Origin: Leifsonia sp. PS1209
GTDB taxonomy: Bacteria; Actinomycetota; Actinomycetes; Actinomycetales; Microbacteriaceae
Assembly (NCBI RefSeq): GCF_012317045.1
Contig: NZ_CP051154.1
Coordinates: 3,100,001-3,164,000, forward strand
Direction: 5' to 3'
Length of the DNA stretch: 64,000 nt
In this document: positions 28,656 through 51,560 of the stretch, in pieces
Layout of the letters: every line of letters begins with the position of its first letter
Numbering within the stretch: the first letter of the stretch is position 1
Notes under the pieces: model-generated
Seen by the model: only the letters and a program-made list of their open reading frames with translations
Database searches by the model: none
What the model was told of the DNA's origin: nothing
Position numbers and translations under genes: made by a program

Positions 28656-29849
28656 CTACTTGATGATCTTCGTGACCGTACCAGCGCCCACGGTGCGGCC
28701 ACCCTCACGGATGGCGAAGCCGAGGCCCTCCTCCATAGCGATCGGCTGGATCAGCTCGACCGTCATGTCGGTGGTGTCGCCGGGCATGACCATCTCGGTG
28801 CCCTCGGGCAGCGTGATGACGCCGGTGACGTCGGTGGTGCGGAAGTAGAACTGCGGACGGTAGTTCGCGTAGAACGGGTTGTGACGCCCACCCTCATCCT
28901 TGGACAGGATGTACGCGGTGCCCTCGAAGTTGGTGTGCGGCGTAACCGAACCCGGCTTCACGACGACCTGACCGCGCTCGACGTCCTCACGCTTGGTTCC
29001 ACGGAGGAGCAGACCACAGTTCTCGCCGGCCCATGCCTCGTCGAGCTGCTTGTGGAACATCTCGATACCAGTGACCGTGGTCTTCTGCGTCGGGCGGATG
29101 CCGACGATCTCAACCTCGGAGTTGATGGCGAGGGTTCCACGCTCGGCGCGGCCGGTGACGACGGTTCCACGACCGGTGATCGTGAAGACGTCCTCGATCG
29201 GCATCAGGAACGGCTTGTCCTTGTCGCGCACCGGGTCGGGGATGGAGTTGTCGACGGCGTCCATGAGCTCGACGATCGACTCGACCCACTTCTCGTCGCC
29301 CTCGAGCGCCTTGAGGCCCGAGACGCGAACGACGGGGGCGTTGTCGCCATCGAAGTCCTGGCTCGACAGAAGCTCGCGAACCTCGAGCTCGACGAGCTCC
29401 AGGATCTCCTCGTCGTCGACCATGTCGGACTTGTTGAGCGCGACGAGCAGGTACGGAACACCGACCTGCTTCGCGAGCAGCACGTGCTCACGGGTCTGCG
29501 CCATCGGGCCGTCGGTAGCGGCGACCACGAGGATCGCGCCGTCCATCTGAGCGGCACCGGTGATCATGTTCTTGATGTAGTCGGCGTGCCCAGGGGCGTC
29601 AACGTGCGCGTAGTGGCGCTTCGGGGTCTCGTACTCGACGTGCGAGATGTTGATCGTGATACCGCGCTGACGCTCTTCCGGAGCCGAGTCGATCGACGCG
29701 AAGTCGCGCTGAACGTTGGTCGCCGACGGGTACTTGTCAGCAAGCACCTTCGAGATCGCCGCGGTGAGCGTCGTCTTTCCGTGGTCGACGTGACCGATGG
29801 TTCCGATGTTGACGTGCGGCTTAGTCCGCTCGAACTTGGCCTTAGCCAC
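28656..29849 (-). CDS. tuf: Elongation factor Tu
   Basis: EF-Tu delivers aminoacyl-tRNA to the ribosome as a GTP complex. The protein has 397 residues, the standard length. G1 is [11 protein letters not shown], followed by DAPGHADY (G3) and NKSDMV (G4). The GTG at 29849 is chosen because GAGGAGG precedes it and [19 protein letters not shown] is the conserved N-terminus; the longer reading from 29906 is rejected. It is the last gene of the str operon and may also have its own promoter in the AT-rich part of the fusA-tuf gap. Confidence 0.98.
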
Positions 29850-29881
29850 TGGGTCCTCCTCAGGACTCTCGTGTAGAAGCC

Positions 29882-29903
29882 CCGGCCGATGGTTTCCGGC
29901 CGG
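29882..29903 (-). other. Hairpin in the fusA-tuf spacer
   Basis: CCGGCC and GGCCGG form a 6-bp stem with a 10-nt loop. An AT-rich patch next to it (29915-29940, with TAACAT and TAGATA on the minus strand) could be a tuf promoter, though no clear -35 is visible. Confidence 0.35.
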
Positions 29904-29962
29904 CAACTCTACGGGATTGTTTATCTATGTTACGGGATACTGCGAAAGGAGGGTGACCGGAG

Positions 29963-32077
29963 TCACTCGCCCTTGTTCTTCTGGACGATCTCGTCGGCAA
30001 CAGCCTTGGGAACCTCCGCGTAGCTGTCGAAGGTCATCGAGTAGACCGCACGGCCCGAGGTCTTCGACCGCAGGTCGCCGATGTACCCGAACATCTCCGA
30101 CAGCGGAACGTTCGCGCGGATCACCTTGACCCCGCTCGCGTCCTCCATCGACTGGATCTGACCACGTCGTGAGTTGAGGTCACCGATCACATCGCCCATG
30201 TACTCTTCCGGCGTGCGAACCTCGACCGCCATGAGCGGTTCGAGGAGCACGGGGTTCGCCTTGCGCGCGGCCTCCTTGTAGGCCATCGAGCCGGCGATCT
30301 TGAACGCCATCTCCGAGGAGTCGACGTCGTGCGAAGCGCCATCCACGAGGGTGGCCTTGACACCCACGGTCGGGAAGCCGGCGAGAACACCCACCTGCAT
30401 CGCGTCCTGGATACCGTGGTCGACCGAGGGGATGTACTCGCGCGGGACGCGGCCACCCGTCACAGCGTTGACGAACTCGTAGCTCGTCTCCGGCGTGACA
30501 TCCATCGGCTCGATCGTGATCTGGATCTTGGCGAACTGGCCAGAACCACCGGTCTGCTTCTTGTGGGTGTAGTCGTACTTCTCGACCGCGCGACGGATGG
30601 TCTCGCGGTAGGCCACCTGGGGCTTGCCGACGTTGGCCTCGACGTTGAACTCGCGCTTCATGCGGTCGACCAGGATGTCCAGGTGAAGTTCACCCATACC
30701 CTTGATGACCGTCTGACCGGTCTCCTGGTTCTGCTCGGTGCGGAACGTCGGGTCTTCCTCGGCGAGCTTCTGGATCGCGGTGCCCAGCTTCTCCTGGTCG
30801 GCCTTGGTCTTCGGCTCGATCGCGACCTCGATGACGGGCTCGGGGAACGTCATCGACTCGAGGACGACCTGGTTGTCCGGGTCGCACAGGGTGTCGCCGG
30901 TGGTGGTGTCCTTGAGGCCGATCACGGCGTAGATGTTGCCAGCGGTCAGGAAGTCGACCGGGTTCTCCTTGTTGGCGTGCATCTGGAAGATCTTCCCGAT
31001 GCGCTCCTTCTTGCCCTTGGTCGAGTTGACGATGCCGGCACCGCTGTCGACACGGCCGGAGTACACGCGCACGTAGGTCAGACGACCGAAGAACGGGTGG
31101 ACGGCGACCTTGAAGGCCAGAGCCGAGAACGGCTCGGACGCGTCGGCGTGGCGAAGGATGACCTTCTCCTCGTCGCGCGGGTCGTGAGCCTCGATGGCCG
31201 GAACGTCGATCGGCGACGGAAGGAAGTCGATCACAGCGTCGAGCATCGGCTGCACGCCGCGGTTCTTGAACGCGGAACCGCAGAGCACCGGGTAGAGCTC
31301 GCTGTTGATCGTCATCTTGCGGATGGCGCCCTTGATCTCTGCGACCGTGAGCTCCTCACCGCCGAAGAACTTCTCGAGCAGTGCGTCGTCGCTCTCCGCG
31401 ACGGTCTCGAGCAGCGTCTGACGGTACTCGTTGGCCTTGTCGACCAGGTCGGCCGGGATCTCCTCGATGGCGTACTTGGCGCCCATCTGGACGTCACCCT
31501 TTGCGTCACCGCGCCAGGTCAGCGCACGCATCTCGATGAGGTCGACGACGCCCTCGAAGGCGGACTCGGAACCGATCGGGAGCTGCAGCACCAGCGGCTT
31601 GGCGCCGAGGCGGCTGACGATGGTGTCGACCGTGTAGTAGAAGTCGGCGCCGAGCTTGTCCATCTTGTTGACGAAGCAGATGCGCGGGACGTTGTACTTG
31701 TCGGCCTGACGCCAGACGGTCTCGGACTGGGGCTCGACGCCCTCCTTGCCGTCGAAGACGGCGACGGCGCCGTCGAGGACGCGGAGCGAACGCTCCACCT
31801 CGACGGTGAAGTCCACGTGACCCGGGGTGTCGATGATGTTGATCTGGTTCTTGTTCCAGAAACAGGTGACGGCCGCGGACGTGATGGTGATGCCGCGCTC
31901 CTTCTCCTGCTCCATCCAGTCGGTCGTCGAAGCGCCGTCGTGGGTCTCGCCGATCTTGTGGTTGACGCCCGTGTAGAACAGGATGCGCTCGGTCGTAGTG
32001 GTCTTGCCGGCATCGATGTGGGCCATGATGCCGATGTTGCGGACCTTGTTCAGGTCGGTGAGCACGTCCTGTGCCAC
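29963..32077 (-). CDS. fusA: Elongation factor G
   Basis: EF-G drives ribosomal translocation with GTP. The 704-residue protein has G1 [14 protein letters not shown], the switch region [14 protein letters not shown]3 DTPGHVDF and G4 [10 protein letters not shown]. Domain IV has [18 protein letters not shown] and domain V is complete. The start is GTG. It follows rpsG by 118 nt that contain a large inverted repeat. Confidence 0.98.
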
Positions 32078-32111
32078 AGGGTTCCTCCGAAAAGTAGAAA
32101 GGTGAAGGGGT

Positions 32112-32157
32112 GCCGGCCCGGGTGGGGCACTCCATGGAGTACAACACCCGGACCGGC
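32112..32157 (-). other. Long inverted repeat in the rpsG-fusA spacer
   Basis: GCCGGCCCGGGTG pairs with CACCCGGACCGGC (12 of 13). The loop contains a second palindrome, ACTCCATGGAGT, so the RNA can form a stem with a nested hairpin. It may be a processing site or attenuator. Confidence 0.5.
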
Positions 32158-32195
32158 GTGGTAATGCCCGAACCGGGATTACCAGCGAGCCGGAT

Positions 32196-32666
32196 TTACC
32201 AGCGGTAGTGCGCGAAGGCCTTGTTCGACTCGGCCATCTTGTGCGTGTCCTCGCGACGCTTGACAGCGGCGCCGAGGCCGTTCGACGCGTCGAGGATCTC
32301 GTTGGTGAGGCGCTCGGTCATGGTCTTCTCGCGACGACCCTTGGCGTAGCTGGTGAGCCAGCGCAGCGCGAGCGTGTTCGCGCGGTGCGGCTTGACCTCG
32401 ACGGGGACCTGGTAGGTCGAGCCGCCGACGCGGCGGCTGCGGACCTCGAGGGTCGGGCGGACGTTGTCGAGCGCCTTCTTGAGCGTGACGACGGCATCCT
32501 GACCGGACTTGGAGGCGACGCCTTCGAGCGCGTCATACACGATGCGCTCAGCGAGGCCCTTCTTGCCGTCGAGCAGGATCTTGTTGACGAGCTGGCTGAC
32601 GATCGGTGCGCCGTAGACCGGGTCTGCGACGACGGGGCGCTTGGGAGCTGGACCCTTGCGAGGCAT
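32196..32666 (-). CDS. rpsG: 30S ribosomal protein S7
   Basis: S7 nucleates the 30S head and binds 16S rRNA; in E. coli it also represses the str operon. The 156-residue protein begins [19 protein letters not shown] and has [20 protein letters not shown]. It ends [14 protein letters not shown]. Its ATG overlaps the rpsL stop by one base (TAATG). Confidence 0.98.
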
Positions 32667-33040
32667 TACTTCTTCTCCATCTTCGCGCCGTACCGGCTGC
32701 GAGCCTGCTTGCGGTTCTTGACGGCCTGGGTGTCCAGCGCGCCACGGACGATCTTGTAGCGAACACCGGGGAGGTCCTTCACACGACCGCCGCGGACGAG
32801 CACCATCGAGTGCTCCTGCAGGTTGTGGCCCTCACCGGGGATGTAGGCCGTGACCTCTGTCCCGTTGGAAAGCTTGACGCGAGCCACCTTGCGGAGAGCC
32901 GAGTTCGGCTTCTTCGGGGTGGTGGTGTAGACGCGGGTGCACACGCCGCGCTGCTGGGGGTTGGCCTTCAGGGCGGGCGCCTTGGTCTTTGTGACCTTGG
33001 GGCTGCGGCCCTTCCGAACCAACTGCTGAATGGTTGGCAC
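32666..33040 (-). CDS. rpsL: 30S ribosomal protein S12
   Basis: S12 sits at the decoding centre and controls accuracy. The 124-residue protein has [13 protein letters not shown], then [19 protein letters not shown] and [18 protein letters not shown], with the usual lysines in both loops. The start is GTG after AAGGAGAAG. It is the first gene of the str operon, about 235 nt below a strong promoter. Confidence 0.98.
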
Positions 33041-33371: not shown

Positions 33372-33410
33372 GCGAAGCGCGGGCATCCATCGTGGATGCC
33401 CGCGCTTCGC
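33372..33410 (-). terminator. Terminator of the WXG100 gene
   Basis: A perfect 18-bp stem (GCGAAGCGCGGGCATCCA and its complement) with a three-base loop lies 17 nt past the WXG100 stop. It separates the secretion locus from the str operon. Confidence 0.85.
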
Positions 33411-33427
33411 GGTGGAGGCGGCGAGAC

Positions 33428-33724
33428 TCAGCCGCCGATGCCCTTGGCGAGCTCGCTGTCGACGTTCTGCAGTGCGTCAGCGGCCTTGGTGAGGAACTGC
33501 GACATCCCGTCGAGACCGTTCACCGCGTCGGTCGTGCCCTTGGTGAACTGCTCGTACGAGGTGTGGAATGCGCCCGAGGCCTGGTCGGTGACGAAGCCGC
33601 CGTTGACGAGTCCGTTGACCAGGTTCTGCAGTTCGTGGAGCTTGGCGGTGATGTCGTCCTTGCCCGAGATGAGGCGGTTGGCGGCATCGGTCATCTCGCC
33701 GTACGTGACGTTCATGTTTGCCAT
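33428..33724 (-). CDS. WXG100-like (ESAT-6 family) protein
   Basis: This 98-residue helical protein has the size and two-helix layout of WXG100 substrates of type VII secretion. It has a long amphipathic first helix, a turn near residue 43 (VNGGFVTDQASGAFHTSYEQF) and a second helix ending in NVDSELAKGIGG. The turn keeps the downstream A-F and Y-x-x-F spacing, but the Trp of W-x-G is replaced by Phe and the Gly is lost. The ATG follows AAGGGAA. It is transcribed alone behind a palindromic operator candidate and ends in a perfect terminator. It probably forms dimers and is exported by the EccC-type ATPase encoded nearby. Confidence 0.8.
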   Translation of the reverse strand: MANMNVTYGEMTDAANRLISGKDDITAKLHELQNLVNGLVNGGFVTDQASGAFHTSYEQFTKGTTDAVNGLDGMSQFLTKAADALQNVDSELAKGIGG

Positions 33725-33781
33725 GATGTCGTTCCCTTCGTGTTGTCCGAGAGGCCAACCCCTCGGCCGACCAGTGATATC

Positions 33782-33787
33782 AAACTA
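33782..33787 (-). promoter_or_regulatory. -10 of the WXG100 gene promoter
   Basis: TAGTTT on the minus strand lies 23 nt below the palindrome at 33811-33830. The -35 position has no TTGACA-like sequence, which fits an activator-dependent promoter. Confidence 0.4.
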
Positions 33788-33810
33788 TCCGTGGATGCTG
33801 GTGGAGTGGA

Positions 33811-33830
33811 ATGGGGAGCACTCCCCATGC
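33811..33830. promoter_or_regulatory. Putative T7SS operator, copy 1
   Basis: ATGGGGAGCACTCCCCATGC contains a perfect ATGGGGAG/CTCCCCAT inverted repeat. A 19/20 identical copy lies at 37797-37816. Both abut the -35 position of genes of the same locus. Confidence 0.55.
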
Positions 33831-33848
33831 GCCTCCCCCGGCGGTCCC

Positions 33849-34739
33849 CTACGCGGCGGACTCCCCGGAGCCCAGCTCCTCGCCCGCGCGCCAGAACTGC
33901 GTCGCGCAGACGATGCCCGCGACGATCAGCACGAGGCCGAGCGCGACGAACGAGAGCGTCCAGGGCAGCGCGTCTGCGAGCTCGGCGCTGGAGGAGGTCG
34001 GGCCGACGGCGGAGGACAGCGGGGTGAACGCGAGCACCAGGATCACGCCGCCGAGGCCGGAGAGCCAGAGGTCGAAGCGCCAGCGGTAGTCGAAGAAGCG
34101 CCAGAAGCGGCGGCCGGGCGCATCCACTCCCTGCTGCACCTTTCCTGCGGCCTGCGCGCGGTAGAAGGAGAGCTTCTTGATGAGCGAGGTGATCGCTGCG
34201 ACGGTCACGCCGAAGCCGATCGAGCCGTAGATGACCCAGTAGCGCGAGAAGTCGTTCTCGTCGCCGACGCTCGCCGGCCAGCCGCCGGTGAACCAGGAGA
34301 CGACGGGCACCACGACGAGGAGCACGGAGATCAGCAGGCCGACGACGATCCAGAAGACGTGCCAGCCGACGGGGAGGACGCGGAACCGGGACACCATGCT
34401 CGCCGACGGCAGCACCGTGTCCGGAGGCGCCGGGTTGCGCTTCATCGCACCCCTGCGCAGCTGCTCACCGGCGACGAGGCCGCACATCGCGAGCAGCAGG
34501 ATCACGCCGGGGGTCGCGCCCATCGCGACGGCGGCGACGCCGCGGATGCCGTCGAGCGAACCGTCGTCCGGGCCTCCGGCGACGGCGGTCATCACGAGAC
34601 CGCCGCCGACCAGCAGCACGAACGCGATGGCGGCGAGGATGCCCCCGCCCACGCTGAGCACACGCCCGAATGCCCGGTTCGATGCCGCGACCCGCTCCCT
34701 GCGCTGTGCGAGCGCCTCCTCGGTCAGTTCGTCGGTCAC
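33849..34739 (-). CDS. Six-helix membrane protein of the T7SS locus
   Basis: This 296-residue integral membrane protein has six predicted helices: about 30-57, 70-93, 130-155, a fourth near 185-205, and two near the C-terminus (around 245-262 and 270-292). A cytoplasmic charged stretch (IKKLSFYRAQAAGKVQQG, then RRFWRFFDYRWRFDLW) links helices 4 and 5. I do not recognise a named family. The GTG start at 34739 overlaps the stop of the upstream gene (GTGA). As the only polytopic protein in this operon it is a candidate channel or anchor component; that is inference from context. Confidence 0.75.
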   Translation of the reverse strand: MTDELTEEALAQRRERVAASNRAFGRVLSVGGGILAAIAFVLLVGGGLVMTAVAGGPDDGSLDGIRGVAAVAMGATPGVILLLAMCGLVAGEQLRRGAMKRNPAPPDTVLPSASMVSRFRVLPVGWHVFWIVVGLLISVLLVVVPVVSWFTGGWPASVGDENDFSRYWVIYGSIGFGVTVAAITSLIKKLSFYRAQAAGKVQQGVDAPGRRFWRFFDYRWRFDLWLSGLGGVILVLAFTPLSSAVGPTSSSAELADALPWTLSFVALGLVLIVAGIVCATQFWRAGEELGSGESAA

Positions 34740-35338
34740 GAGACCTCCTCGGTCTGCAGTTCGGCCCAGGTGAGGGAATCGACGATCGCGTCGAAGAAGA
34801 GCGTGTACAGCTCGGGGTCGTGGGCGGTGGGGGCGGAGACGCTGACGGTCAGCAGGCCGGCGTCCGCCGGGTACGGCACCGAGTATTCGAGGTAGAGGGA
34901 CGGCTCGCGCGTCTCCCCGATGACGTCCTCGCCGATCTCCCGGATGCGGGCGACCGGTCCCGTGCGCTGCTCGATGAGCTGCGCGCCGGGCGTCGCGGCG
35001 GCGAGCCGTTCGGCGAGAGGGCGCTCGGCGTCGACCTCCTCCGGCCACGCGCGGTCGCGCGCGATGAGGGCTGCGGGCAGCGGGATGCCGGGGAGGACTT
35101 CGAGCGACATCCAGAACGCGGTGGCGCCGGCGGCCCGCGCGCGCTCTGCCGTGCTCACCAACTCCTCGCGCGCATCCCGTCTCATCCGCGCCAGGCGGTC
35201 GTTGCGGCCGACCTGCTGCAGCACCAGGGTCCGGATGCGCTCGCGCATGGTCTCCTCGTCGACCAGCGGGATGTCGGCCCAGGTGCCGGGGAGGATGATC
35301 GAGTACGAGCCCTGCGGGGAACGGGCGGTGTACGTCAT
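34736..35338 (-). CDS. T7SS-locus soluble protein B, function unknown
   Basis: This 200-residue protein has no signal peptide or membrane helix. It starts with a beta-rich YSIILPGTWADIPLV segment. A charged helical stretch (RNDRLARMRRDAREELVSTA) follows, then FWMSLEVLPGIPLPAALIA, and it ends with LYTLFFDAIVDSLTWAEL. Its layout parallels that of the neighbouring 35335-35961 protein (SIGTPERWYPMPL at the start, then helices and a beta core), so the two look like distant paralogues. It overlaps both neighbours by 4 nt. It may be a cytosolic chaperone or adaptor for the secretion substrates; this is inference. Confidence 0.7.
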   Translation of the reverse strand: MTYTARSPQGSYSIILPGTWADIPLVDEETMRERIRTLVLQQVGRNDRLARMRRDAREELVSTAERARAAGATAFWMSLEVLPGIPLPAALIARDRAWPEEVDAERPLAERLAAATPGAQLIEQRTGPVARIREIGEDVIGETREPSLYLEYSVPYPADAGLLTVSVSAPTAHDPELYTLFFDAIVDSLTWAELQTEEVS

Positions 35339-35961
35339 GCGTCCACCCTGTCCGCGAGGGTGACGGTGAGCGTCGCGACCAGCGCCTGCACGTCGGAGGC
35401 CATATCGGTGAACACGCCGAGGTTCTCCGCCGACGCCACGAACTGCACGACCTGTGCGGCGTCCGGCGGGTAGACCACCGCCACGACCCGCTCCTCCAGC
35501 TCGGCGCCGCCGTCCGGGAGGGCGTGGGCGATGAGGTTGTGAGATCCGACCAGTTCGCCGGCGTCCACGGCGGAGCGCCAGGTCTGTACGGCGAAATAGC
35601 TCTGGCCGGAATCCGGCTCGACGACGGGAGCAGCGAGCGCCTCCTCGTACTGGTCCGGCGTTCCGACCAGCTCGACGGGGGCGAGCGAGAAGACGAGTGC
35701 CGCTCCTGCCCGGCCGATCTCCGGGTACGGGATCCAGACCGCCGCGGTCATCGCCGGGTTGCGCATCTCGCGGAAGCGCGAGCGCGCGAACGCGAGTTCG
35801 TCGGCGAGCTTGGCGCGCATCCCCTGGTCGTCGACGAGGGATGCGGCGAGGTGCGCCGGCCAGTCCGGGTCCGAGGCTTCGGCGAGCGGCATCGGATACC
35901 AGCGCTCCGGAGTGCCGATGCTGAAGTCGACGATGTCGCGCCGTGTTCCGTTCGCCGTCAC
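35335..35961 (-). CDS. T7SS-locus soluble protein A, function unknown
   Basis: This 208-residue protein has no signal peptide or membrane segment. It begins with FSIGTPERWYPMPLAEAS, continues through a charged helix (AKLADELAFARSRFREMRN), and has a beta-rich middle with AALVFSLAPVELVGTPDQY. It ends VQALVATLTVTLADRVDA. It resembles protein B in order and size. The GTG start at 35961 follows GGGGAGG. It is 34 nt after the large candidate substrate and overlaps protein B by 4 nt. Confidence 0.7.
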   Translation of the reverse strand: MTANGTRRDIVDFSIGTPERWYPMPLAEASDPDWPAHLAASLVDDQGMRAKLADELAFARSRFREMRNPAMTAAVWIPYPEIGRAGAALVFSLAPVELVGTPDQYEEALAAPVVEPDSGQSYFAVQTWRSAVDAGELVGSHNLIAHALPDGGAELEERVVAVVYPPDAAQVVQFVASAENLGVFTDMASDVQALVATLTVTLADRVDA

Positions 35962-35995
35962 TGAGCCTCCCCTTCGCCCACCGGTACCCTACCCG

Positions 35996-37405
35996 CTACT
36001 TCGTGCCGTTGTTGGCGACGTTCCAGACGTCCTTGACCACGCCGACCGTGCTGCTCGTTGCTCCGCCGATCTTGTCGTAGTCGCCGGGGACGAACGACGA
36101 ACCGGTGTCGATGGCCTGCCCGATCGGGTTGTTGGTGAAGCCGGAGACTGCGCCCGTGACCACCTTGACCGTGTTGTGCACCTGGTAGAGGGTCGCGGCC
36201 CCCGCGGTGAACTTCATGCCGTTGGTGAGCAGGCTCGGATCCGCCTTGGCCAGGTTGTAGAAGCCGACCAGGTCCTTGTTGATGCCGAAGCCCTTGCTGA
36301 TGCTGAGGTTCAGGCCGGGGAACGCCTCGCGCGCCGCTTCCTTGATGAGCTCTGGACCGGACTTGGTGCCGGACTGGAACGCGGTGAGCGCCGCCTTCTG
36401 CGCATCCGTGCGGATGAACGGGGACTTGAACGCGTCGGAGAGCGGCTTGCTCAGGGCCTCGTTGGCCTTGGTGGCGCTCATGAAGTCCGTGCTGTGCCTG
36501 CTGACCCCCTGCAGCCGCGACAGCTGGCGGCTGTCGGTGATGCCGGTGCGGACGATGGCGGTGGCGCGGAGGTTCTTGGCCACCATCGCGAAGATCTTCC
36601 CGCCGAACAGCGTGAGCACGCAGCCGACGGCGGCGAACGCGACATCCCACCAGGAGCCGTCGCCGTTGATGACCTTGACGATGGACTCGACCAGGTCGAT
36701 GATCGCGCCGATCGCGCCGAGCACGATCAGGATCTGGCCGAGGATGGGCACCCAGGCGAAGAAGATCGCCAGCACGCCCGCCCACTTGCAGATGGTCTTG
36801 AAGATGCTGAAGACGGTGGAGCCCCAGTCGTCCCAGAACGAGTCCTTCAGGCCGTGATTGTTCTTGTCGACGACGTTGACGATGGCGGCGATGGCGGTCT
36901 CGGCGGCGGAGTTCTTCGCATCCAGTGCCGTGTGCCACTCCGCGTGCGCCGCCCGCAGGTCGGCGTCGGCTGCGTCGGCGGCATCCTGAGACTTGGTGGC
37001 CGCCGTGGATGCCGTTGCCTTGTCGGCGTCTGCCGCGGTGTCCGCTGCATGCTGCGCGGTGGTCGCCGCGTGCTTGGCGGTGTTTGCCGCCTCCTGCTTG
37101 CTCTCGATGTGTGCGATGGCGGTGGTGGCCGCATCCTGGGCCGAGCGCAGGGACGACGAGTACGTGATGAGGGCGTCCGCGGTCGTGCGGTAGCGGTCGT
37201 GGGCCTTGTCGATGTCTCCGGCGACATCCTTCGCGGAGTCGCGGAACGCGTCGATGGCCTTGCTGACCATCTGGTCGACGTCGCCGATCTTCTTCAGCGT
37301 GGTGACCGAGCGCTGGATGGCGTCGGCGATCTCGGCGTAGTGGCGCGCCTTGGACAGCACCAGGTCCGGGTCGCCCTTGAGCGGCTGGTATTCGACGTCA
37401 CTCAT
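35996..37405 (-). CDS. Candidate T7SS-secreted membrane-active protein
   Basis: This 469-residue protein begins with a helical domain (about 1-105) starting GDPDLVLSKARHYAEIADAI. It resembles the putative T7SS secretion-signal domain of actinobacterial polymorphic toxins. An Ala/Thr/Asp-rich coiled coil follows (about 90-170; AADTAADADKATASTAATKS). Two or three hydrophobic segments come next (about 195-285, including AGVLAIFFAWVPILGQILIV). The C-terminal ~180 residues have no recognised domain, so no toxin fold or immunity partner can be named. It is 9 nt downstream of a WXG100-like gene, the usual pairing for such substrates. A membrane-inserting effector or surface protein are both possible. 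Confidence 0.7.
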   Translation of the reverse strand: MSDVEYQPLKGDPDLVLSKARHYAEIADAIQRSVTTLKKIGDVDQMVSKAIDAFRDSAKDVAGDIDKAHDRYRTTADALITYSSSLRSAQDAATTAIAHIESKQEAANTAKHAATTAQHAADTAADADKATASTAATKSQDAADAADADLRAAHAEWHTALDAKNSAAETAIAAIVNVVDKNNHGLKDSFWDDWGSTVFSIFKTICKWAGVLAIFFAWVPILGQILIVLGAIGAIIDLVESIVKVINGDGSWWDVAFAAVGCVLTLFGGKIFAMVAKNLRATAIVRTGITDSRQLSRLQGVSRHSTDFMSATKANEALSKPLSDAFKSPFIRTDAQKAALTAFQSGTKSGPELIKEAAREAFPGLNLSISKGFGINKDLVGFYNLAKADPSLLTNGMKFTAGAATLYQVHNTVKVVTGAVSGFTNNPIGQAIDTGSSFVPGDYDKIGGATSSTVGVVKDVWNVANNGTK

Positions 37406-37414
37406 CTGCGTCTC

Positions 37415-37738
37415 CTAGTTCTTCGCCGGCGCTGCCGGGTAGTCCTGCGACTTCGCCGCGTCTTCCAGTGCGGTGGCAAGCCCCTCGTCCACCTTGGTGA
37501 AGCCGTCCGTGACTCCCGCGACGGACTTGGAGAGGCTCTCCACCGACTCGGTCATCTTCTTGCGCTTGTCGTTCCACTTGTGGGCGAAGTCGCGCACGTG
37601 GCCGGAGAGTCCGTCGTGGCCGGTGGCGTCCGCGACGGCGTCACTGAAGTCGTCTGCGCCCTTGAACTCGGAGACGATGGCCTCGAGGTCGGACTTGAGC
37701 TGTCCGAGCAGTTCCAGGTCGAGCTTCAGATCGGTCAT
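37415..37738 (-). CDS. WXG100-like partner protein
   Basis: This 107-residue helical protein has the central HVRDFAHKWNDKRKKM segment. A conserved Trp plus basic helix start is typical of WXG100-like proteins encoded before T7SS-signal proteins. Two helices flank the turn and the C-terminus is a flexible AAKSQDYPAAPAKN tail. The ATG follows GGAGGGG. It is the first gene of a five-gene operon (37738 down to 33849). Its promoter shares an operator-like palindrome with the divergent eccC. It likely heterodimerises with the downstream signal-domain protein for export. Confidence 0.75.
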   Translation of the reverse strand: MTDLKLDLELLGQLKSDLEAIVSEFKGADDFSDAVADATGHDGLSGHVRDFAHKWNDKRKKMTESVESLSKSVAGVTDGFTKVDEGLATALEDAAKSQDYPAAPAKN

Positions 37739-37768
37739 GACGTTCCCCTCCGTTTTCAGGCTGTAGCC

Positions 37769-37774
37769 AACCTA
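37769..37774 (-). promoter_or_regulatory. -10 of the five-gene T7SS operon
   Basis: TAGGTT on the minus strand lies 22 nt from the palindrome at 37797-37816, matching the arrangement at the WXG100 gene. There is no -35 consensus. Confidence 0.4.
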
Positions 37775-37796
37775 CCGAGCGCGGCATGGTGAGGCG

Positions 37797-37816
37797 ATGG
37801 GGAGCAGTCCCCATGC
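37797..37816. promoter_or_regulatory. Putative T7SS operator, copy 2, between divergent promoters
   Basis: ATGGGGAGCAGTCCCCATGC differs from the copy at 33811-33830 by one base. It lies 22 nt from the -10 of the minus-strand operon and 21 nt from the -10 of eccC, so one site could control both directions. Confidence 0.55.
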
Positions 37817-37837
37817 AGCGACGTGCATGTATATAGG

Positions 37838-37843
37838 TATCGT
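37838..37843 (+). promoter_or_regulatory. eccC -10 element, leaderless
   Basis: TATCGT ends 7 nt before the GTG at 37851. No ribosome-binding site is present. Confidence 0.55.
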
Positions 37844-37850
37844 TCTTTGC

Positions 37851-40800
37851 GTGCGCCTCAAACTCACGCTCTCCCGCCCATCCGGTGCCGGCGATGACAT
37901 CGTCGTCACCGCAGACGCCGCAGCCAGCATCTCGGAAGTCGCCGCGAGCATCCGGCGTGTCGACCCGCGCGGCGGGAAAGGGCCGGTCACCGACGACAGG
38001 GCGCTGACCCTCCGCGCCGCCATCCCCGGCCAGGCGGAGACCCTCGTGCTGCCACCGGATGCGCCGATCGGCGAGGCCTGGATCGGGAGCGGGGCGACGG
38101 TCAGCCTGGCGGACGCCGGGGTGTACTACGCCCCGAGCGACCTCGGCGACGCGCCGGCGGTCGCGACGGCGCAGATCCTCACCGGCCCCGACGCCGGGCG
38201 TGAGTTCCCGCTCCGGCCGGGAACGGCCCTCCTCGGCAGGGACGACAGCTGCGACATCGTGCTCAACGACCCGCTGGTGTCGAAGCGGCACGTGCGCCTC
38301 GAGGTGGGCGACGGCGTCGAGGTGATCGACCTCGGCTCCGCCAACGGCGTGGTGGTGGACGGCGGCATCGTGACCCGCCTCACCGTGCGAAGGCCGGAGA
38401 CCCTGCTGATCGGAGACACCGAGGTGCGCATCGCGGTGTCCGGGCTGTCCGGCATCCCCGCTGCTGCGCCGAAGGCCGGACCGGTCTTCTTCAACAGGTC
38501 GCCGCGGGTGGAGCAGCGGTACGCGGGCCAGGTGTTCCAGGCGCCGGAGGTGCCGACGGAGAAGGACGACCCGCCCTTCCCGCTGCTCGCGATGATCACG
38601 CCGCTGCTGCTCGGCGGGGCGATGTTCGCGCTCACCCGCCAGCCGACGTCGCTGCTGTTCGTGCTGCTCTCCCCGGTGATGCTCATCGGCAACTACATGA
38701 CCGGGCGCACCCGCGGCAAGCGCAAGCTCAAGAAGGCCATCGCGGTCTTCGACAAGCGACTGGATGCGCTCACCGCCAAGCTGGACGCCGAGCGTCTCCG
38801 CGAGGTCGAGCTCCGGCGTGCGGAATCGCCGACGACGCACGCCGCCCTCGCGGACGCCGTGCAGCGCGGCCCGCTGCTCTGGACCAGGCGCCCCGAGCAC
38901 TGGTCGTTCCTCAACCTGCAGCTCGGGATCGGCTCGATGCGGTCGAGGAACACCATCGCGAGCAATGATCGCGGCGAGATGATCGTCGAGTTCCAGGAGC
39001 GTCTGGACGCGGTCATCGACGCCAACGAGCGCGTCTCGGACGTCCCGGTGCTCGACAACCTGTTCGAGTCCGGCGCGCTCGGCATCGCCGGCCCGGCCGA
39101 GCACATCGCCGGGTCGGTCAACTCGACCCTGGTGCAGCTGACGGCGCTGCACTCCCCCGCAGAGCTCGTGGTCGCCGCCCTCGTCTCCCCGCGCTGGTCG
39201 CGGGAGCTGGAATGGCTCAAGTGGATGCCGCACACGTCGTCGCCGCACAGCCCGCTCGCCGGAGGCCACCTCGCGGACAGCGCTTCCAGTGCATCCACTG
39301 TCCTCAGCGCGCTCGAAGGGCTCGTGGAGGAGCGGCTGGCCCGCGCGAAGGGCCCGCAGCGCCGCGGTGCGATGGAGCAGGAGCGGGCCGCGATCGAGCG
39401 CGGGGCCGAGGTGGGCAAGTCGCAGACCGTGGACGGGACTCCGTCGCCCGTTCCCGCCGTGGTGGTCGTCATCTCCGGCGACGTGGCGATCGACCGGCCG
39501 CGCCTGGTGCAGCTGGCGGAGGCTGCCGCCGATGCCGGCGTCTTCCCGATCTGGCTGGACACCGACGTCGCGGCTCTTCCCGCCGTCTGCCGCACATACG
39601 TGGCGCACGCGGAGCGGGACGACCGCGCGACGGTCGGCTTCGTGCGCATCGGCGAGACCATCGACGACGTTGTCACCGAGCCCGTCGACCGCGCCACAGC
39701 GCTCGACTACGCCAAGCGCATGGCCCCCGTCATCGATGCGGGCGCGCTCGTCGCCGACGCCAGCGACCTGCCGCGCAGCATCTCGCTCGTCAGCCTGCTC
39801 GGCCACGACCTGACCGAGTCGTCCGGCGCCGTCATCGACCGCTGGAGGCAGAACGCCTCCATCCACGACAGGTCGGGCGCGCGCCCCGTGAAGCGCAGAG
39901 CGGGCACCCTGCGGGCCATCATCGGCTCCGCCGGCGTGGATGCGATGCACCTCGACCTGCGCAGCCAGGGCCCGCACGCCCTCGTCGGCGGAACGACCGG
40001 CGCGGGCAAGAGCGAGTTCCTGCAGGCCTGGGTGCTCGGGATGGCCGCCGAGTACAGCCCGGACAGGGTCACCTTCCTGTTCGTCGACTACAAGGGCGGC
40101 TCCGCCTTCGCGGACTGCGTGAGCCTGCCGCACTGCGTCGGCCTGGTCACCGACCTCAGCCCGCACCTGGTGCGCCGTGCGCTCACCAGCCTGCGCGCCG
40201 AACTGCACCACCGCGAGCACCTGCTCAACCGCAAGAAGGCGAAAGACCTGCTGGAGCTGGAGAAGCGCGGCGACCCGGAGTGCCCTCCCGCGCTCGTGCT
40301 CGTGATCGACGAGTTCGCCGCGCTCGTCGGCGAGGTGCCGGAGTTCGTGGACGGCGTGGTCGACATCGCCCAGCGCGGACGGTCGCTCGGCATCCACCTC
40401 ATCATGGCCACGCAGCGTCCCGCCGGTGTCATCAAGGACAACCTGCGCGCGAACACCAACCTGCGCATCGCGCTCAGGATGGCGGACGAGTCCGACAGCC
40501 AGGACGTGGTCGGCGTCTCGGACGCCGCCCACTTCGACCCGGCCATCCCCGGGCGCGGCATGGCCAAGACCGGCCCGGGCAGGCTCGCCCCGTTCCAGTC
40601 CGCGTACGCGGGCGGCTGGACCAGCCGAGAGCCGGAGCGGGCGGGCGTCGAGGTCGCGGAACTGCGCTTCGGCGGCGAGATCCGCTGGGAGGAGGAGGGC
40701 TCCGGCCGCGAGGAGGAGCGCGACCTCGGGCCGACGGACCAGCAGCGCCTCGTGACCTCGATCGTGCGGGCGCAGGGCGAGGCCCGCATCCCGTCGCCGC

Positions 40801-42338
40801 GGCGTCCCTGGCTGGACGAGCTGGCCGCGGTCTACGACCTCGGGCTGCTGCGGCAGCGCACGGACGCCGAGCTGCTGCTCGGCGTGAGCGACGTGCCGGA
40901 CAGGCAGCAGCAGCTGCCGGTGTACTTCCAGCCGGATGTGGACGGCAACATAGCCATCTACGGCACGGGCGGCGCGGGCAAGTCCGCTGCGCTCCGCACA
41001 CTGGCGTCGTCCGCGGCGATCACCCCGCGCGGCGGTCCCGTGCGCGTCTACGCGCTCGACTTCGGTGCAGGCAGCCTCCGGATGCTCGAGAAGATGCCGC
41101 ACGTCGGCTCCGTCATCCCCGGCGACGACGCCGAGCGCATCATCCGACTGTTCCGGATGCTCAAGGAGGAACTCGAGACCCGAGGGCCGCGGTTCGCGGA
41201 GGCCAACGCCTCCAGCATCACCGAATACCGCAGGCTCACCGGGCGCCAGAACGAGGCGCGCATCCTGCTGCTGATCGACGGATTCCCGAACTTCCGCGAG
41301 GACTTCGAGATCCCGGCGGGACGCTCGCAGTGGTACGACGTGTTCAAGGACATCCTCAGCGACGGCCGCCAGCTCGGGATGCACGTCGCACTCACCGGTG
41401 ACCGCGCCGGCGCCGTCCCCACCGCGATCCGGTCGCTCGTGCAGCGTTCCGTCGTGCTGCGGCTCGCCGACGACGGCTACGGGATGCTCGACGTGCCGAA
41501 CGACATCCTGGGCCCGTCCTCCCCTCCCGGGCGCGCGATCGTCGACGGCTACGAGACGCAGCTCGCGGTGCTGGGCGGGAGCGCATCCGTGTCGGACCAG
41601 TCCGCGGCGACGACGCGCCTGGCGGAGGCGATGGTGCGGGCCGGGGTGCAGGAGACGCCGCCGATCGGCTCGCTGCCCAAGGAGTTCGCCATCGAGACCC
41701 TCCCGCCGTCGCACGACGGGGCACCGGTGCTCGGGGTCAGCGACCTCGACCTCGGGCCGTTCGGGTTCGAGCCCGCCGGGACGCTGCTCGTCGCGGGCCC
41801 TCCGGCGAGCGGTCGGTCGACCACGCTGGCGGCGCTCGCGGCCTCTGTGCTGCGGTTCGACCCGCAGGCGCGGCTCTACTACCTGGGCAACGCGCGGTCG
41901 GCGCTCGGGCGGGCGAGCCACTGGACAGACGCGGCGACGACGCCGGAGACCGCGGCGGCGCTGGCGAAAGACCTGGTCGCCGCCGTCGCCGACCCGGACA
42001 CGGAGGGGCGCATCGCGGTGATCGTGGAGAGCATCGGGGACTTCCTGCAGACCCCGGCCGACTCCCCCATCGTCGAGCTCGTGCGTGCCGTGCGCCGCAG
42101 CGACCACCTGCTGGTCGCCGAGGCGGAGTCGAGCGCCTGGGGGTCGTCCTGGCCGCTGCTCGGCGAGGTGAAGAACGGCCGCCGTGGTCTGCTGCTGCAG
42201 CCGGACTCGGTCGAAGGCGACCTGCTGCTCAAGACGCCGCTGCCGAGGCTGAACCGCTCCGAGTTTCCTCCCGGGCGCGGCGTCTACATCGCCAAGGGTC
42301 GCTTCGCTCGCGTGCAGGTGCCGCTGGTCGGGGAGTAG
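37851..42338 (+). CDS. eccC: EccC/EssC-type FtsK/SpoIIIE ATPase with FHA domain
   Basis: This 1495-residue protein is the motor ATPase of type VII secretion. In order it has an N-terminal beta-rich region (1-100) and an FHA domain (about 108-198) with the phosphopeptide-binding residues GR (129-130), SKRH (144-147) and NG (165-166). Two membrane helices (about 245-284) follow, then three FtsK-like ATPase domains. Walker A motifs are GGTTGAGKSE (near 712), YGTGGAGKSA (near 1037) and GPPASGRSTT (near 1315). The third has Arg for the catalytic Lys. Only the first has a full Walker B (LVLVIDEFAAL); the second reads LLLIDGFPNF. The layout is closer to Firmicutes EssC than to the mycobacterial EccCa/EccCb pair. 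The GTG start at 37851 is set by the TATCGT box 7 nt upstream. Confidence 0.9.
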   Translation: MRLKLTLSRPSGAGDDIVVTADAAASISEVAASIRRVDPRGGKGPVTDDRALTLRAAIPGQAETLVLPPDAPIGEAWIGSGATVSLADAGVYYAPSDLGDAPAVATAQILTGPDAGREFPLRPGTALLGRDDSCDIVLNDPLVSKRHVRLEVGDGVEVIDLGSANGVVVDGGIVTRLTVRRPETLLIGDTEVRIAVSGLSGIPAAAPKAGPVFFNRSPRVEQRYAGQVFQAPEVPTEKDDPPFPLLAMITPLLLGGAMFALTRQPTSLLFVLLSPVMLIGNYMTGRTRGKRKLKKAIAVFDKRLDALTAKLDAERLREVELRRAESPTTHAALADAVQRGPLLWTRRPEHWSFLNLQLGIGSMRSRNTIASNDRGEMIVEFQERLDAVIDANERVSDVPVLDNLFESGALGIAGPAEHIAGSVNSTLVQLTALHSPAELVVAALVSPRWSRELEWLKWMPHTSSPHSPLAGGHLADSASSASTVLSALEGLVEERLARAKGPQRRGAMEQERAAIERGAEVGKSQTVDGTPSPVPAVVVVISGDVAIDRPRLVQLAEAAADAGVFPIWLDTDVAALPAVCRTYVAHAERDDRATVGFVRIGETIDDVVTEPVDRATALDYAKRMAPVIDAGALVADASDLPRSISLVSLLGHDLTESSGAVIDRWRQNASIHDRSGARPVKRRAGTLRAIIGSAGVDAMHLDLRSQGPHALVGGTTGAGKSEFLQAWVLGMAAEYSPDRVTFLFVDYKGGSAFADCVSLPHCVGLVTDLSPHLVRRALTSLRAELHHREHLLNRKKAKDLLELEKRGDPECPPALVLVIDEFAALVGEVPEFVDGVVDIAQRGRSLGIHLIMATQRPAGVIKDNLRANTNLRIALRMADESDSQDVVGVSDAAHFDPAIPGRGMAKTGPGRLAPFQSAYAGGWTSREPERAGVEVAELRFGGEIRWEEEGSGREEERDLGPTDQQRLVTSIVRAQGEARIPSPRRPWLDELAAVYDLGLLRQRTDAELLLGVSDVPDRQQQLPVYFQPDVDGNIAIYGTGGAGKSAALRTLASSAAITPRGGPVRVYALDFGAGSLRMLEKMPHVGSVIPGDDAERIIRLFRMLKEELETRGPRFAEANASSITEYRRLTGRQNEARILLLIDGFPNFREDFEIPAGRSQWYDVFKDILSDGRQLGMHVALTGDRAGAVPTAIRSLVQRSVVLRLADDGYGMLDVPNDILGPSSPPGRAIVDGYETQLAVLGGSASVSDQSAATTRLAEAMVRAGVQETPPIGSLPKEFAIETLPPSHDGAPVLGVSDLDLGPFGFEPAGTLLVAGPPASGRSTTLAALAASVLRFDPQARLYYLGNARSALGRASHWTDAATTPETAAALAKDLVAAVADPDTEGRIAVIVESIGDFLQTPADSPIVELVRAVRRSDHLLVAEAESSAWGSSWPLLGEVKNGRRGLLLQPDSVEGDLLLKTPLPRLNRSEFPPGRGVYIAKGRFARVQVPLVGE

Positions 42339-44171: not shown

Positions 44172-44891
44172 TTATTTCTGCGCTGCGGCCGCCGTCGGGA
44201 GGGTGAGGACGTATGTGTAGCCGTTGATCTTGGCGTCGACGCCCGTGCCGCCGGATGCTGGACCGGAGGAGAAGCCGTCCACCAGGAACAGCCGCTGGCC
44301 GGTCTGAGCGGCGTGCAGAAACGCCACGACGTTGGTGTATCCGCCTGTCACGGTGAAGCTGACGGGCACCACCGTGAAGTTCTGGGCCGTGATGAGGGGA
44401 CTGACGACGGGCGGCATCCCGGCGACGGGGACCGGCGCAGCCGTGGCCGTCGGAGCGGGGGTCGGCGTCGCCGACGGCGACGGGGTGGCCGTCGAGGCGG
44501 CGGACGAGCCGGTGGAGGCGACGGGGGCCGCCGGTGCTGCCGGGGCTGCGTACGGCTGCCCGTCCGCGATCGCCCAGCCCGAGATCACCACGCCGTTCGC
44601 CGCTGCGAAGCCATTGAGCTCGTCCATGAACGCCGCGTTGGCTGACTCGGTCGGCACGGAGGCGGCGAGTGATGCCAGCGTCTTCTTCAGCGCCGGGAGG
44701 TTCGCCGAGTCCTTCTTCAGCCGGTCGAGCACGGCGGTGTTCGCCGTGATGGTCTGGTCGACCTGCGCGGTCTGCGTGTCAGCGGCGGCGGCCTGGTCGA
44801 GCTGGGGCTGGATGCCGACCACCCAGCCGAGCGCCACGAGGGCGACCATCACGATGACGGAGCCGATCATCCAGAGTCTGGTCTTGTCCAT
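44172..44891 (-). CDS. pilO: PilO-like type IV pilus assembly protein
   Basis: PilO pairs with PilN in the inner-membrane alignment complex of type IV pili. This 239-residue protein has a short cytoplasmic start and one membrane helix (about 7-27, MIGSVIVMVALVALGWVVGI). A coiled coil (about 33-80) and a C-terminal ferredoxin-like domain follow. A Pro/Ala/Ser/Thr linker of about 45 residues (VASTGSSAASTATPSPSATP) splits the periplasm-like domain, which is unusual. The ATG at 44891 is preferred over an overlapping GTG at 44897 because AAGGGC is 8 nt away. It is the last gene of the operon and no strong terminator follows. Confidence 0.82.
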   Translation of the reverse strand: MDKTRLWMIGSVIVMVALVALGWVVGIQPQLDQAAAADTQTAQVDQTITANTAVLDRLKKDSANLPALKKTLASLAASVPTESANAAFMDELNGFAAANGVVISGWAIADGQPYAAPAAPAAPVASTGSSAASTATPSPSATPTPAPTATAAPVPVAGMPPVVSPLITAQNFTVVPVSFTVTGGYTNVVAFLHAAQTGQRLFLVDGFSSGPASGGTGVDAKINGYTYVLTLPTAAAAQK

Positions 44892-44893
44892 GA

Positions 44894-45703
44894 TCACTTG
44901 CCCTTCTGCTCGAAGCGCTTCGCGTAGCGCGTCTGGTCGACGTGGAGGGTGATGGTGACCTTGTACTGACCGGTCGTCGTGTCGAGTGCACCGATGCTCG
45001 GCACCACGTCCGCGACGCCCGGGATCTTCTCCAGCTCGCGCACCCAGGCCGTGACGTCGGGGATGGTGGGACTGGAACTGACGGTGGTGACGGTCCCGAT
45101 CCTGGCCAGCTGCAGCGGGTCGGGAGACTGCTGGTAGATCGCGAGCGGCGACGCGGAGTCCGCCGCGACCGTGTCGAGGGCGACCCCGGCCGGTTGCACG
45201 GCGCCCACCTGGTCGAGCAGCGCTTTCCAGTCGATCTCGGTGGACGCGCCCACCCGCTGGGCCGCCTGAGCGAGCGCGACCTCTTTCTGCACATCCCGGA
45301 CGCCGGTGAACTTCTGCTGCTGGGTGAGCAGGTCGGCGGTGGCGAGCTGGGCTCCGAGGAACCTGGCCTGAGCCGCGACGTTGTAGACGAACGCCCCGCC
45401 GATGGCGAGCACGACGGCGAGCAGCACGGCGAGCACGCCCCAGCCGAAGCCGCGGCGGGTGCTCCTGTTCTTCCGTTCGGCTCTGACCTCCGGCGGCAGG
45501 AGGTCGACGCGCGGCTCCATGCCGATGTCGAGGCTCTCCGTGCGGCCGGTGGCTTTCGGCGCAGACGCTCTGGTGGCCTTCGGTTCGGCAGGGGCTGTGG
45601 GCTTCTTGGGCGCTTTCGGCGCCCTGCGGCCCTTCGTCGCCGGAGCGACCGTCGGCAGCTGCTCCGTCTCCTGGGCGTCCGAGCGCCTCGTCGTGATGCT
45701 CAT
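44894..45703 (-). CDS. pilN: PilN-like type IV pilus assembly protein
   Basis: This 269-residue protein carries the conserved PilN link MEPRVDLLPPEVRAERKNR. The Asn-Leu-Leu-Pro motif that binds PilM in Gram-negatives appears here as VDLLPPE. One membrane helix follows (about 88-110). The C-terminal domain (about 130-269) is the alpha/beta fold that dimerises with PilO. The first 55 residues are a Lys/Ala/Pro-rich cytoplasmic extension. It overlaps pilM by 4 nt. Confidence 0.85.
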   Translation of the reverse strand: MSITTRRSDAQETEQLPTVAPATKGRRAPKAPKKPTAPAEPKATRASAPKATGRTESLDIGMEPRVDLLPPEVRAERKNRSTRRGFGWGVLAVLLAVVLAIGGAFVYNVAAQARFLGAQLATADLLTQQQKFTGVRDVQKEVALAQAAQRVGASTEIDWKALLDQVGAVQPAGVALDTVAADSASPLAIYQQSPDPLQLARIGTVTTVSSSPTIPDVTAWVRELEKIPGVADVVPSIGALDTTTGQYKVTITLHVDQTRYAKRFEQKGK

Positions 45704-46749: not shown

Positions 46750-46768
46750 TCGATCTCCTCAGGTTCTT

Positions 46769-49497: not shown

Positions 49498-50147
49498 GAC
49501 CCCGATCCGATGTTCGACATCCCGACCGAGTTGGTGAGGGTCACAGCGCTGGCGGCCCCGGTGGGCTGGATCGTGATGCTGATCGTGATGGAGGCGATGG
49601 CGGACAGGGTCGTGATCGGCAGGGTCAGCGGGGCGCCCGATGCGTCACGGTAGGTGAAGACCACGCTGCCGGCCGGGATGGAGCCGCAGAGGGTGCGCTT
49701 CAGGTTCGGAGTGGGGCTGGTGTTGAAGTCCCAGTGGCCGTTGACGCCGGGCGTGGTGGTCGTCGCGTTCCACTGGCTCTCCACCAGCAGGCCGTTGACC
49801 ACCGCGAACTGCACCTTCACCGGGCTCTCCGCTCCCGTCAGGTTGACGTAGGCGTAGAACTGGATGGTCGTGGCGGTCGCCGTGATGATGGCCGGGTCGT
49901 TCTGCGCGCCGCCCGGCGTAGGGTTGGTCAGCGGATTCGGGGTGGCCGCGCGCACCATGCGGGCCATCTCGTTCATCCCGTTGGAGCCCTGACGGGTGCC
50001 GTTGTCGATCGACTGGGCGAGGCTGACGCTGTGGGTGCTCGCGACGAAGAGCGAGCCGGCCAGCGTGGCGATGAGCGCGGCGATGCCCATGGCGATGAGC
50101 AGCTCCACCAGCGTGAGGCCCTGGTCGCGCCGCACCCGGCGGATCAT
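49494..50147 (-). CDS. Minor type IV prepilin (PilW/PilJ-like)
   Basis: This 217-residue prepilin has the leader MIRRVRRDQG. It is cleaved before LTLVELLIAMGIAALIATLA, with the conserved Glu at +5 of the mature helix. The globular part is beta-rich with one Cys (RTLCGSIPAG) and the sequence FTYRDASGAPLTLP seen in PilW-like proteins. It overlaps both neighbours by 4 nt. It likely joins the tip-initiation complex with the 50144 product. Confidence 0.88.
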   Translation of the reverse strand: MIRRVRRDQGLTLVELLIAMGIAALIATLAGSLFVASTHSVSLAQSIDNGTRQGSNGMNEMARMVRAATPNPLTNPTPGGAQNDPAIITATATTIQFYAYVNLTGAESPVKVQFAVVNGLLVESQWNATTTTPGVNGHWDFNTSPTPNLKRTLCGSIPAGSVVFTYRDASGAPLTLPITTLSAIASITISITIQPTGAASAVTLTNSVGMSNIGSGS

Positions 50148-51520: not shown

Positions 51521-51560
51521 GGGGGTTCACCTCCCTGGGTCGGGTGTCTGGGAGAGGGGA

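Follow-up and report, generated by a model that had tools for sequence, protein, structure and literature searches.

What do two near-identical palindromes do beside the promoters of T7SS genes in Leifsonia sp. PS1209? The window, i.e., the whole stretch of 64,000 nucleotides that was analysed, had been given a first-pass annotation in which the two elements were proposed to mark a dedicated regulon. Both palindromes are present and their 20-mers differ at one base; the promoters and genes around them are as follows.

33428..33724, minus strand: WXG100 gene, 98 aa, TsdA/EsxA type (PF06013, E 4.1e-15)
33782..33787, minus strand: -10 box TAGTTT of the WXG100 gene, 23 bp from operator 1
33811..33828, no strand assigned: candidate operator 1, ATGGGGAGCACTCCCCAT, a perfect 8-2-8 palindrome (ATGGGGAG-CA-CTCCCCAT)
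33849..34739, minus strand: five-gene operon, gene 5, 296 aa, without a Pfam match; by eye, a stretch close to the N terminus is hydrophobic
34736..35338, minus strand: five-gene operon, gene 4, 200 aa, no Pfam match
35335..35961, minus strand: five-gene operon, gene 3, 208 aa, no Pfam match
35996..37405, minus strand: five-gene operon, gene 2, 469 aa, putative T7SS substrate (T7SS_signal PF21725, E 3.4e-9)
37415..37738, minus strand: five-gene operon, gene 1, 107 aa, presumed small partner protein, no Pfam match at 1e-3
37769..37774, minus strand: -10 box TAGGTT of the five-gene operon, 22 bp from operator 2
37797..37814, no strand assigned: candidate operator 2, ATGGGGAGCAGTCCCCAT (ATGGGGAG-CA-GTCCCCAT), between two divergent promoters
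37838..37843, plus strand: -10 box TATCGT of essC/eccC, 23 bp from operator 2
37851..42338, plus strand: essC/eccC (tsdC-type), FHA (PF00498) and FtsK/SpoIIIE ATPase (PF01580)

Gaps between palindrome and -10 box were counted from the 18-mer, not the 20-mer. The gaps of 23 and 22 nt previously given for the WXG100 gene and the five-gene operon are unchanged, and the 21 nt given for eccC becomes 23, because the 20-mer had been used as the measuring end. The GTG start of essC/eccC lies 8 nt past its -10 box, and its transcript is therefore probably leaderless. None of the three promoters had been credited with a TTGACA-like -35, in agreement with a consensus scan of 33400-38300 that returned a single TTGACA/TATAAT-like site (36675-36703), away from all three promoters. 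Nor is there a further copy of the palindrome in the window, as had been noted by reading: with 3 mismatches allowed, the pattern still hits nothing but these two places, both strands of each being counted (4 strand-hits vs 0.10 expected; none of 100 shuffles reached 4). The complete genome, a single contig of 4,091,164 bp, likewise has no other place within two mismatches, and the reversed control pattern gave no match there at up to 2 mismatches.

A third site was found at C1:1743274-1743291, 1.39 Mb from the essC/WXG100 locus, and had been missed earlier because it falls outside the window. Both of its arms are altered relative to operators 1 and 2, the palindrome is still perfect, and a -10 box TAGCGT follows at 22 bp. 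The gene behind it encodes a 1728 aa protein with Big_9 (six stretches) and fn3 domains (Pfam), and the genes after it code for MoxR, DUF58 and transglutaminase proteins; nearby lie kinase, PP2C and FHA genes (kinase PF00069 at L115:5848-7533). In its domain content the large Ig/fn3 protein looks like TsdI of T7SSd. The available part of the T7SSd description (Garrett, Higginson, Palmer 2024, PMC11217815) lists a WXG100 protein, an FHA and FtsK ATPase, a Ser/Thr kinase and the large Ig-like protein TsdI, and that part describes no promoter element or transcriptional regulator; unlike that system, the strain has its Ig-protein and kinase genes 1.39 Mb from WXG100 and essC. Here the FHA-bearing EssC-type ATPase, the WXG100 protein (TsdA) and a Ser/Thr kinase (PF00069, in the distant cluster, by domain match only) were all identified, and no PF08817 match, which would indicate a YukD-like ubiquitin protein, was obtained among the window proteins scanned. 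The genes for an fn3 protein, an AAA ATPase, DUF58 and transglutaminase at the third operator also resemble the bifidobacterial PFNA gene cluster (PMC8430577), although the cluster here has a promoter element in common with T7SS genes.

The exact pattern ATGGGGAN4TCCCCAT occurs in 101 of 398 genomes of the family (reversed control in 1) and in 109 of 396 genomes of the order (reversed control in 1), and in 6 of the 288 genomes sampled outside the order (reversed control in 2). It goes with EssC in both sets, in Fisher tests that ignore common descent: in the family 85 genomes have both, 16 the site only, 66 EssC only and 231 neither, and in the order, with EssC at E<=1e-80, the counts are 82, 27, 54 and 233. 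The mycobacterial ESX-1 regulators EspM and WhiB6 are reported to be transcription factors controlling T7SS genes (PMC7002343, PMC11005418), but they belong to another order of bacteria, and the palindrome is found in just those 6 genomes outside its own. Within the genus the operator pair is kept in 16 of 28 genomes (up to 2 mismatches); G018, of the same genus, has an EssC 72% identical and yet no motif match at 2 mismatches. Of 29 EssC loci scanned with the variant pattern, 13 have sites with a 22-23 bp gap, in records of Leifsonia, Lacisediminihabitans, Cryobacterium, Microbacterium, Humibacter, Agromyces (MAG) and Oerskovia; at these loci the element is conserved upstream of T7SS genes. 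Even the details recur: L007 and L018 have a gap of 22 on the side of the five-gene operon and TATCGT at 23 on the essC side, L018 has TAGTTT at 23 as does the WXG100 promoter here, and four Cryobacterium loci have an altered right arm with the 22/23 bp gaps kept.

The distance to the -10 box is strongly preferred across genomes. When both sides of every palindrome were taken and duplicates merged, TANNNT started at 21-24 bp in 132 of 369 distinct flanks, or 33 per offset vs 0.76 per other offset. Counted by palindrome, 119 of 174 unique ones had TANNNT at this distance on at least one side (six control windows: 6, 1, 2, 2, 14 and 3). The same palindrome in viral contigs showed no peak (23 of 185 flanks at 21-24, 5.75 per offset vs 4.83 elsewhere), and genomes outside the order had TANNNT at 21-24 in none of 18 flanks. 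At promoter-linked flanks the gap is mostly 22-23 bp, the -10 is typically TAGNNT and a consensus -35 is absent; palindrome positions 9-10 vary among 112 such flanks. A small group of flanks has its TANNNT at offset 33, a further turn of the helix away (8 flanks, 6 of which represent one conserved Leifsonia-type gene). The fetched regions were in part chosen by hand; among 60 loci returned automatically by the family and order scans (L064-L093, L150-L179) and labelled as T7SS or not by reading, TANNNT at 21-24 was present in 28 of the 34 T7SS loci and in 8 of the 26 others. The six T7SS loci that have no TANNNT at 21-24 are L152, L172, L174, L175, L178 and L179; by eye, L172, L174, L178 and L179 have TTGAGT at offset 22. 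A random genome-wide occurrence of the element, which the first-pass annotation had named as contrary evidence, is not what was seen: the sites are not spread at random over genomes, and the gap is strongly preferred.

Which genes follow the element? By reading, about 95 of the 122 downstream genes are T7SS genes or lie within T7SS clusters and about 25 are not evidently T7SS. Pfam matches among the 122 proteins, any of which may count under several families, include WXG100 (41), WXG100_2 (14), FHA (6) and LXG (4), and in two genomes the element precedes esx pairs divergent from eccD (T7SSa). The term "dedicated" fits this strain within the scope of the analysis, since its three sites and four promoters all belong to T7SS or T7SSd-like genes, but in other genera the element also precedes some lipoprotein and small membrane protein genes. 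Some exact matches have no -10 at the right offset and lie in coding regions, near flagellin genes or near flgB (the flgB sites of G544, G626, G676 and G770, all of one genus, lack TANNNT at the fixed gap), so part of the exact matches reflects chance or another use. Two regulator genes downstream of sites, each in one genome, are likely chance matches: L145 codes for a response regulator and lacks a -10 at 21-24 bp, and L142 codes for a MerR protein and has its -10 at about 20 bp.

We consider it likely that a dimeric regulator of T7SS genes, most probably a class II activator, has the 18-bp palindrome as its operator. The palindrome would sit directly upstream of the expected place of the -35, and numbering the -10 hexamer -12 to -7 puts its centre near -43.5/-44.5; it abuts the -35 region at a fixed phase relative to the -10, and the -35 itself is weak or absent. 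A dimer bound at this helical phase would help RNA polymerase at TANNNT -10 promoters that have no consensus -35. One dimer on operator 2 could serve both divergent promoters, those of essC and the five-gene operon, a second on operator 1 the WXG100 gene, and a third the Ig/fn3 (TsdI-like) gene, plus the MoxR, DUF58 and transglutaminase genes if these form one operon. The proposal that a regulator-bound site abuts or replaces the -35 and couples substrate, partner and motor is supported by the conservation at EssC loci, the non-random spread and the preferred gap.

A repressor that keeps the T7SS genes off until a signal frees them could use the same kind of operator, as symmetry alone cannot separate the two modes and the palindrome abuts the -35 region. 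Repressor sites, however, more often overlap the -35, the -10 or +1, with freer spacing, whereas no part of this one reaches into the spacer between -10 and -35, upstream of which it lies; its upstream position, near-fixed gap and missing -35 therefore fit a polymerase-touching activator better, and the offset-33 class weakly favours an activator as well, which leaves repression unlikely. It is very improbable that the palindrome holds the -35 element of a dedicated sigma factor: this would account for the missing consensus -35 and the preferred distance to the -10, but the 22-23 bp between the nearer half-site and the -10 are more than a -35 allows (the -35 to -10 distance is usually 16-18 bp), the element has two-fold symmetry and is used in both directions, and the TAGNNT -10 looks like the ordinary housekeeping type. 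The Streptomyces CebR-type operator, TGGGAGCGCTCCCA, has arms like those found here (TGGGAG vs TGGGGAG) and such operators have a central CG. A LacI-type sugar regulator is nevertheless equally improbable, since each arm here is one G longer, the central CG is not kept (positions 9-10 vary) and the targets are mostly T7SS genes, not sugar uptake genes. An RNA, terminator or attenuator hairpin, which would suit operator 1, 20 nt past the stop codon of the five-gene operon, is the least credible reading, as operator 2 lies between divergent start regions upstream of both -10 boxes, no terminator-like stem-loop with a T tract was found by a scan of 33400-38300, and the preferred gap to the -10 would be left without a reason.

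For the predicted activator, a GerE/LuxR-NarL type HTH protein is our leading but tentative guess, from operator shape. The tra box of TraR and other LuxR-NarL (GerE) operators are 18-bp palindromes with the half-site ATG.G.AG in a class II position near -43. The palindrome described here agrees with the tra box in length, half-site layout and position and differs in having G at two half-site positions instead of T and C. Among neighbour clusters present in at least 4 loci (from 1098 predicted proteins encoded up to 8 kb away from exact or variant sites, inspected by eye), no recurrent HTH gene was found beside the sites. GerE matches numbered 9 in G161, 6 in G145 and 6 in G443, mostly NarL-type response regulators, with no clear orthologue common to the three genomes. 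Within genus g96 there was no GerE group in G443, G513 and G601 that was missing from both G500 and G539, a contrast that is weak because G500 and G539 carry EssC (30 of the 40 matches had loci; L231 and L247 were left out). A protein with a degenerate receiver and an HTH (L217) was rejected as the common regulator: the 26 of 40 genomes that match it include some with T7SS and some lacking it, and the site-bearing G161, G407, G513 and G601 have no match.

To our knowledge, little is known about the switching of T7SS genes in actinobacteria other than mycobacteria, and the motif was not found in the open-licence literature (searched by motif strings and by T7SS with promoter, regulator and taxon terms). 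It is possible, though somewhat less likely than not, that one master activator conserved across Actinomycetales families recognises ATGGGGAGNNCTCCCCAT before T7SSd and T7SSa genes, scattered effector genes and the Ig-protein operon. If so, the element would be a signature by which unlinked T7SS substrates and components can be found in genomes, and it would keep a machine with dispersed genes under common control. A promoter mark across much of an order gives a handle for isolating the regulator and a means to predict effectors of the WXG100/LXG type whose genes lie at a distance from those of the machine. The shared element is also evidence that the Ig/kinase/MoxR/transglutaminase (PFNA-like) genes functionally belong to the secretion system.

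The two near-identical palindromes described in the first-pass annotation (taken here as 18-mers) are real and rare: even with three mismatches allowed, nothing else in the window matches (expectation 0.10 strand-hits), where no third copy had been seen by reading either, and they are the sole matches in the whole 4.09-Mb genome when two are allowed. The claimed near-constant distance to the -10 boxes was also recovered, with a TANNNT 22 or 23 bp from the palindrome in all three promoters.

Features of the locus and its flanks (gap, distance from the 18-mer to the -10 box)
28656-33040 and 44172-51590, the two flanks: str operon and type IV pilus genes
33811-33828, palindrome 1
37797-37814, palindrome 2
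-10 box of the WXG100 gene: TAGTTT, gap 23
-10 box of the five-gene operon: TAGGTT, gap 22
-10 box of essC: TATCGT, gap 23
37851-42338 (+), essC, EssC/EccC-type FHA and FtsK/SpoIIIE ATPase

The essC message is probably leaderless, because the GTG start codon begins only 8 nt past the -10. Leifsonia sp. Root227, at 96% EssC identity, is the closest named relative. The locus stands between the str operon (rpsL, rpsG, fusA, tuf) and genes of the type IV pilus (PilO, PilM, prepilin peptidase, N_methyl).

With three mismatches allowed, the genome scan revealed a third operator, ATGGGCAGCGCTGCCCAT (contig C1:1743274-1743291), in which both arms are changed and which is nonetheless a perfect palindrome. 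It stands immediately upstream of a gene whose large product contains bacterial Ig and fn3 domains, and TAGCGT follows at 22 bp; PP2C, FHA-protein and Ser/Thr kinase genes lie upstream of the operator, and MoxR, DUF58 and transglutaminase genes downstream. Since the third operator has a -10 at the gap and the other three three-mismatch places (L003, L005, L006), all inside predicted genes, have no TANNNT there, the element marks four promoters in this genome as far as a three-mismatch scan sees, all of them T7SS or T7SSd-like. In the genus, 19 of 28 genomes matched with two or fewer mismatches, 16 of them with a palindrome pair 3-4 kb apart; where an additional site was inspected (ten genomes), it was upstream of the Ig/fn3 gene every time. 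Single matches in G001, G016 and G020 do not fit this picture, and one genus member (G018, EssC 72% identity) had no match at two mismatches.

Conservation in related Microbacteriaceae, for which a scan had been proposed, extends beyond the genus. The exact pattern (ATGGGGAN4TCCCCAT) is found 220 times in the family, in 101 of 398 genomes and 32 of 85 genera, and 346 times in the order, in 109 of 396 genomes and 38 of 110 genera; of a phylum sample, 9 of 296 genomes carry it (6 of 288 outside the order). The reversed control pattern was found in one, one and two genomes, respectively. EssC was detected in 85 of the 101 family genomes with sites versus 66 of the 297 others (Fisher p 9e-29, common descent ignored), and at E<=1e-80 in 82 of 109 versus 54 of 287 in the order (p 2e-25, common descent ignored). 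Four of the 16 family genomes tallied as site without EssC (G076, G132, G263, G411) yielded a diverged EssC with an alignment as query. EssC-positive genomes without the exact motif numbered 66 in the family and 54 in the order (1e-80). A variant pattern allowing G-to-C changes in the arms gave sites with the gap at 13 of 29 EssC loci from named records (four of them Cryobacterium loci, where the right arm reads TGCCCAT) and none at the other 16, some of which are short or truncated sequences. Three site-rich genomes had no EssC match (G494, 12 sites; G714, 7; G596, 5), and their sites may represent different motif use or a diverged machine. In a genome from another order (G880, contig C7), four identical ATGGGGAATTTTCCCCAT copies (L254, L260-L262) on either strand within 22.5 kb are perhaps unrelated, iteron-like repeats.

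Two checked cases tie the element to T7SSa in addition to T7SSd, because in G624 and G540 (family f14) it precedes a WXG100 gene pair divergent from eccD (eccB was seen too in G624), with -10 boxes, by eye, of TAGCCT at 23 and TAGTGT at 22. The EssC search gave no match in G624 and a weak one (3e-68) in G540.

Among 369 distinct flanks, taken from both sides of every palindrome, TANNNT started at offset 22 in 76, 23 in 41, 24 in 9 and 21 in 6, against 0.76 per offset elsewhere. The peak survived clustering at 60% identity (345 flanks, 286 clusters; 58 representatives at 22 and 29 at 23), and 119 of 174 unique palindromes had TANNNT in this offset range on at least one side. Viral contigs with the same palindrome (185 flanks, lower GC) showed no such peak, which argues that it is not a property of the palindrome sequence itself. 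A minor class at offset 33 comprised eight flanks, six of them from one conserved Leifsonia-type gene divergent from a WXG100 gene. At f9 T7SS sites (L172, L174, L178, L179), TTGAGT replaces TANNNT at offset 22. The promoter consensus reads ATGGGGAG-TN-CTCCCCAT-CG-N20-21-TAGNNT; no TTGACA was seen in it, in agreement with the first-pass annotation, and the palindrome's final T, with the G two positions further, could form part of a degraded -35.

The 134 oriented promoters (10 without a called gene within 400 nt) led to 122 distinct downstream proteins, with Pfam matches (a protein may count more than once) to WXG100 (41), WXG100_2 (14), EspC (7), FHA (6), LXG (4), Tdi1-type immunity (3, Tdi1-C), PP2C (2) and GAD-like (1). 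By reading, T7SS genes and other members of T7SS clusters make up about 95 of the 122, and non-T7SS genes about 25: those of lipoproteins, of small DUF4190/DUF4870-like membrane proteins and of unknown proteins. Far from the secretion machine, many effector-like genes carry the element. Mutually similar proteins lie downstream of the palindrome at L096 (7362-8222), L097 (9412-9906) and L080 (1642-2511); these are probably the Tdi1-C and GAD-like members and possibly immunity genes of T7SS toxins. At L110, L111, L112, L172 and L306, WXG100 genes are duplicated along with their palindrome promoter, which is exact or nearly so (copies ~0.5 to 4.4 kb apart). Outside T7SS loci, genes for small DUF4870/DUF4190-like membrane proteins, mostly named by eye, adjoin the palindrome in several genera (L103, L107, L131, L184, L191, L195). 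The regions analysed were partly chosen by hand; among the 60 loci returned automatically, 34 were T7SS by reading, and the promoter gap was present in 28 of these and in 8 of the 26 non-T7SS loci. Exact matches that lack a -10 at the gap also occur, some inside coding sequence and some close to flagellar genes; in four genomes of one genus an exact palindrome lies 129 nt upstream of flgB (L153-L156, L301), with no -10 at 21-24 bp.

GerE protein searches gave no clear candidate for the binding protein, no recurrent HTH gene was seen beside the sites, and one specific candidate family was rejected. In the literature searched, we found no description of such a T7SS-regulon element. Its length, symmetry and position are like those of GerE-type operators, e.g., the tra box. 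We read it as an operator-promoter element through which a putative factor, probably a class II activator, would control a T7SS regulon.
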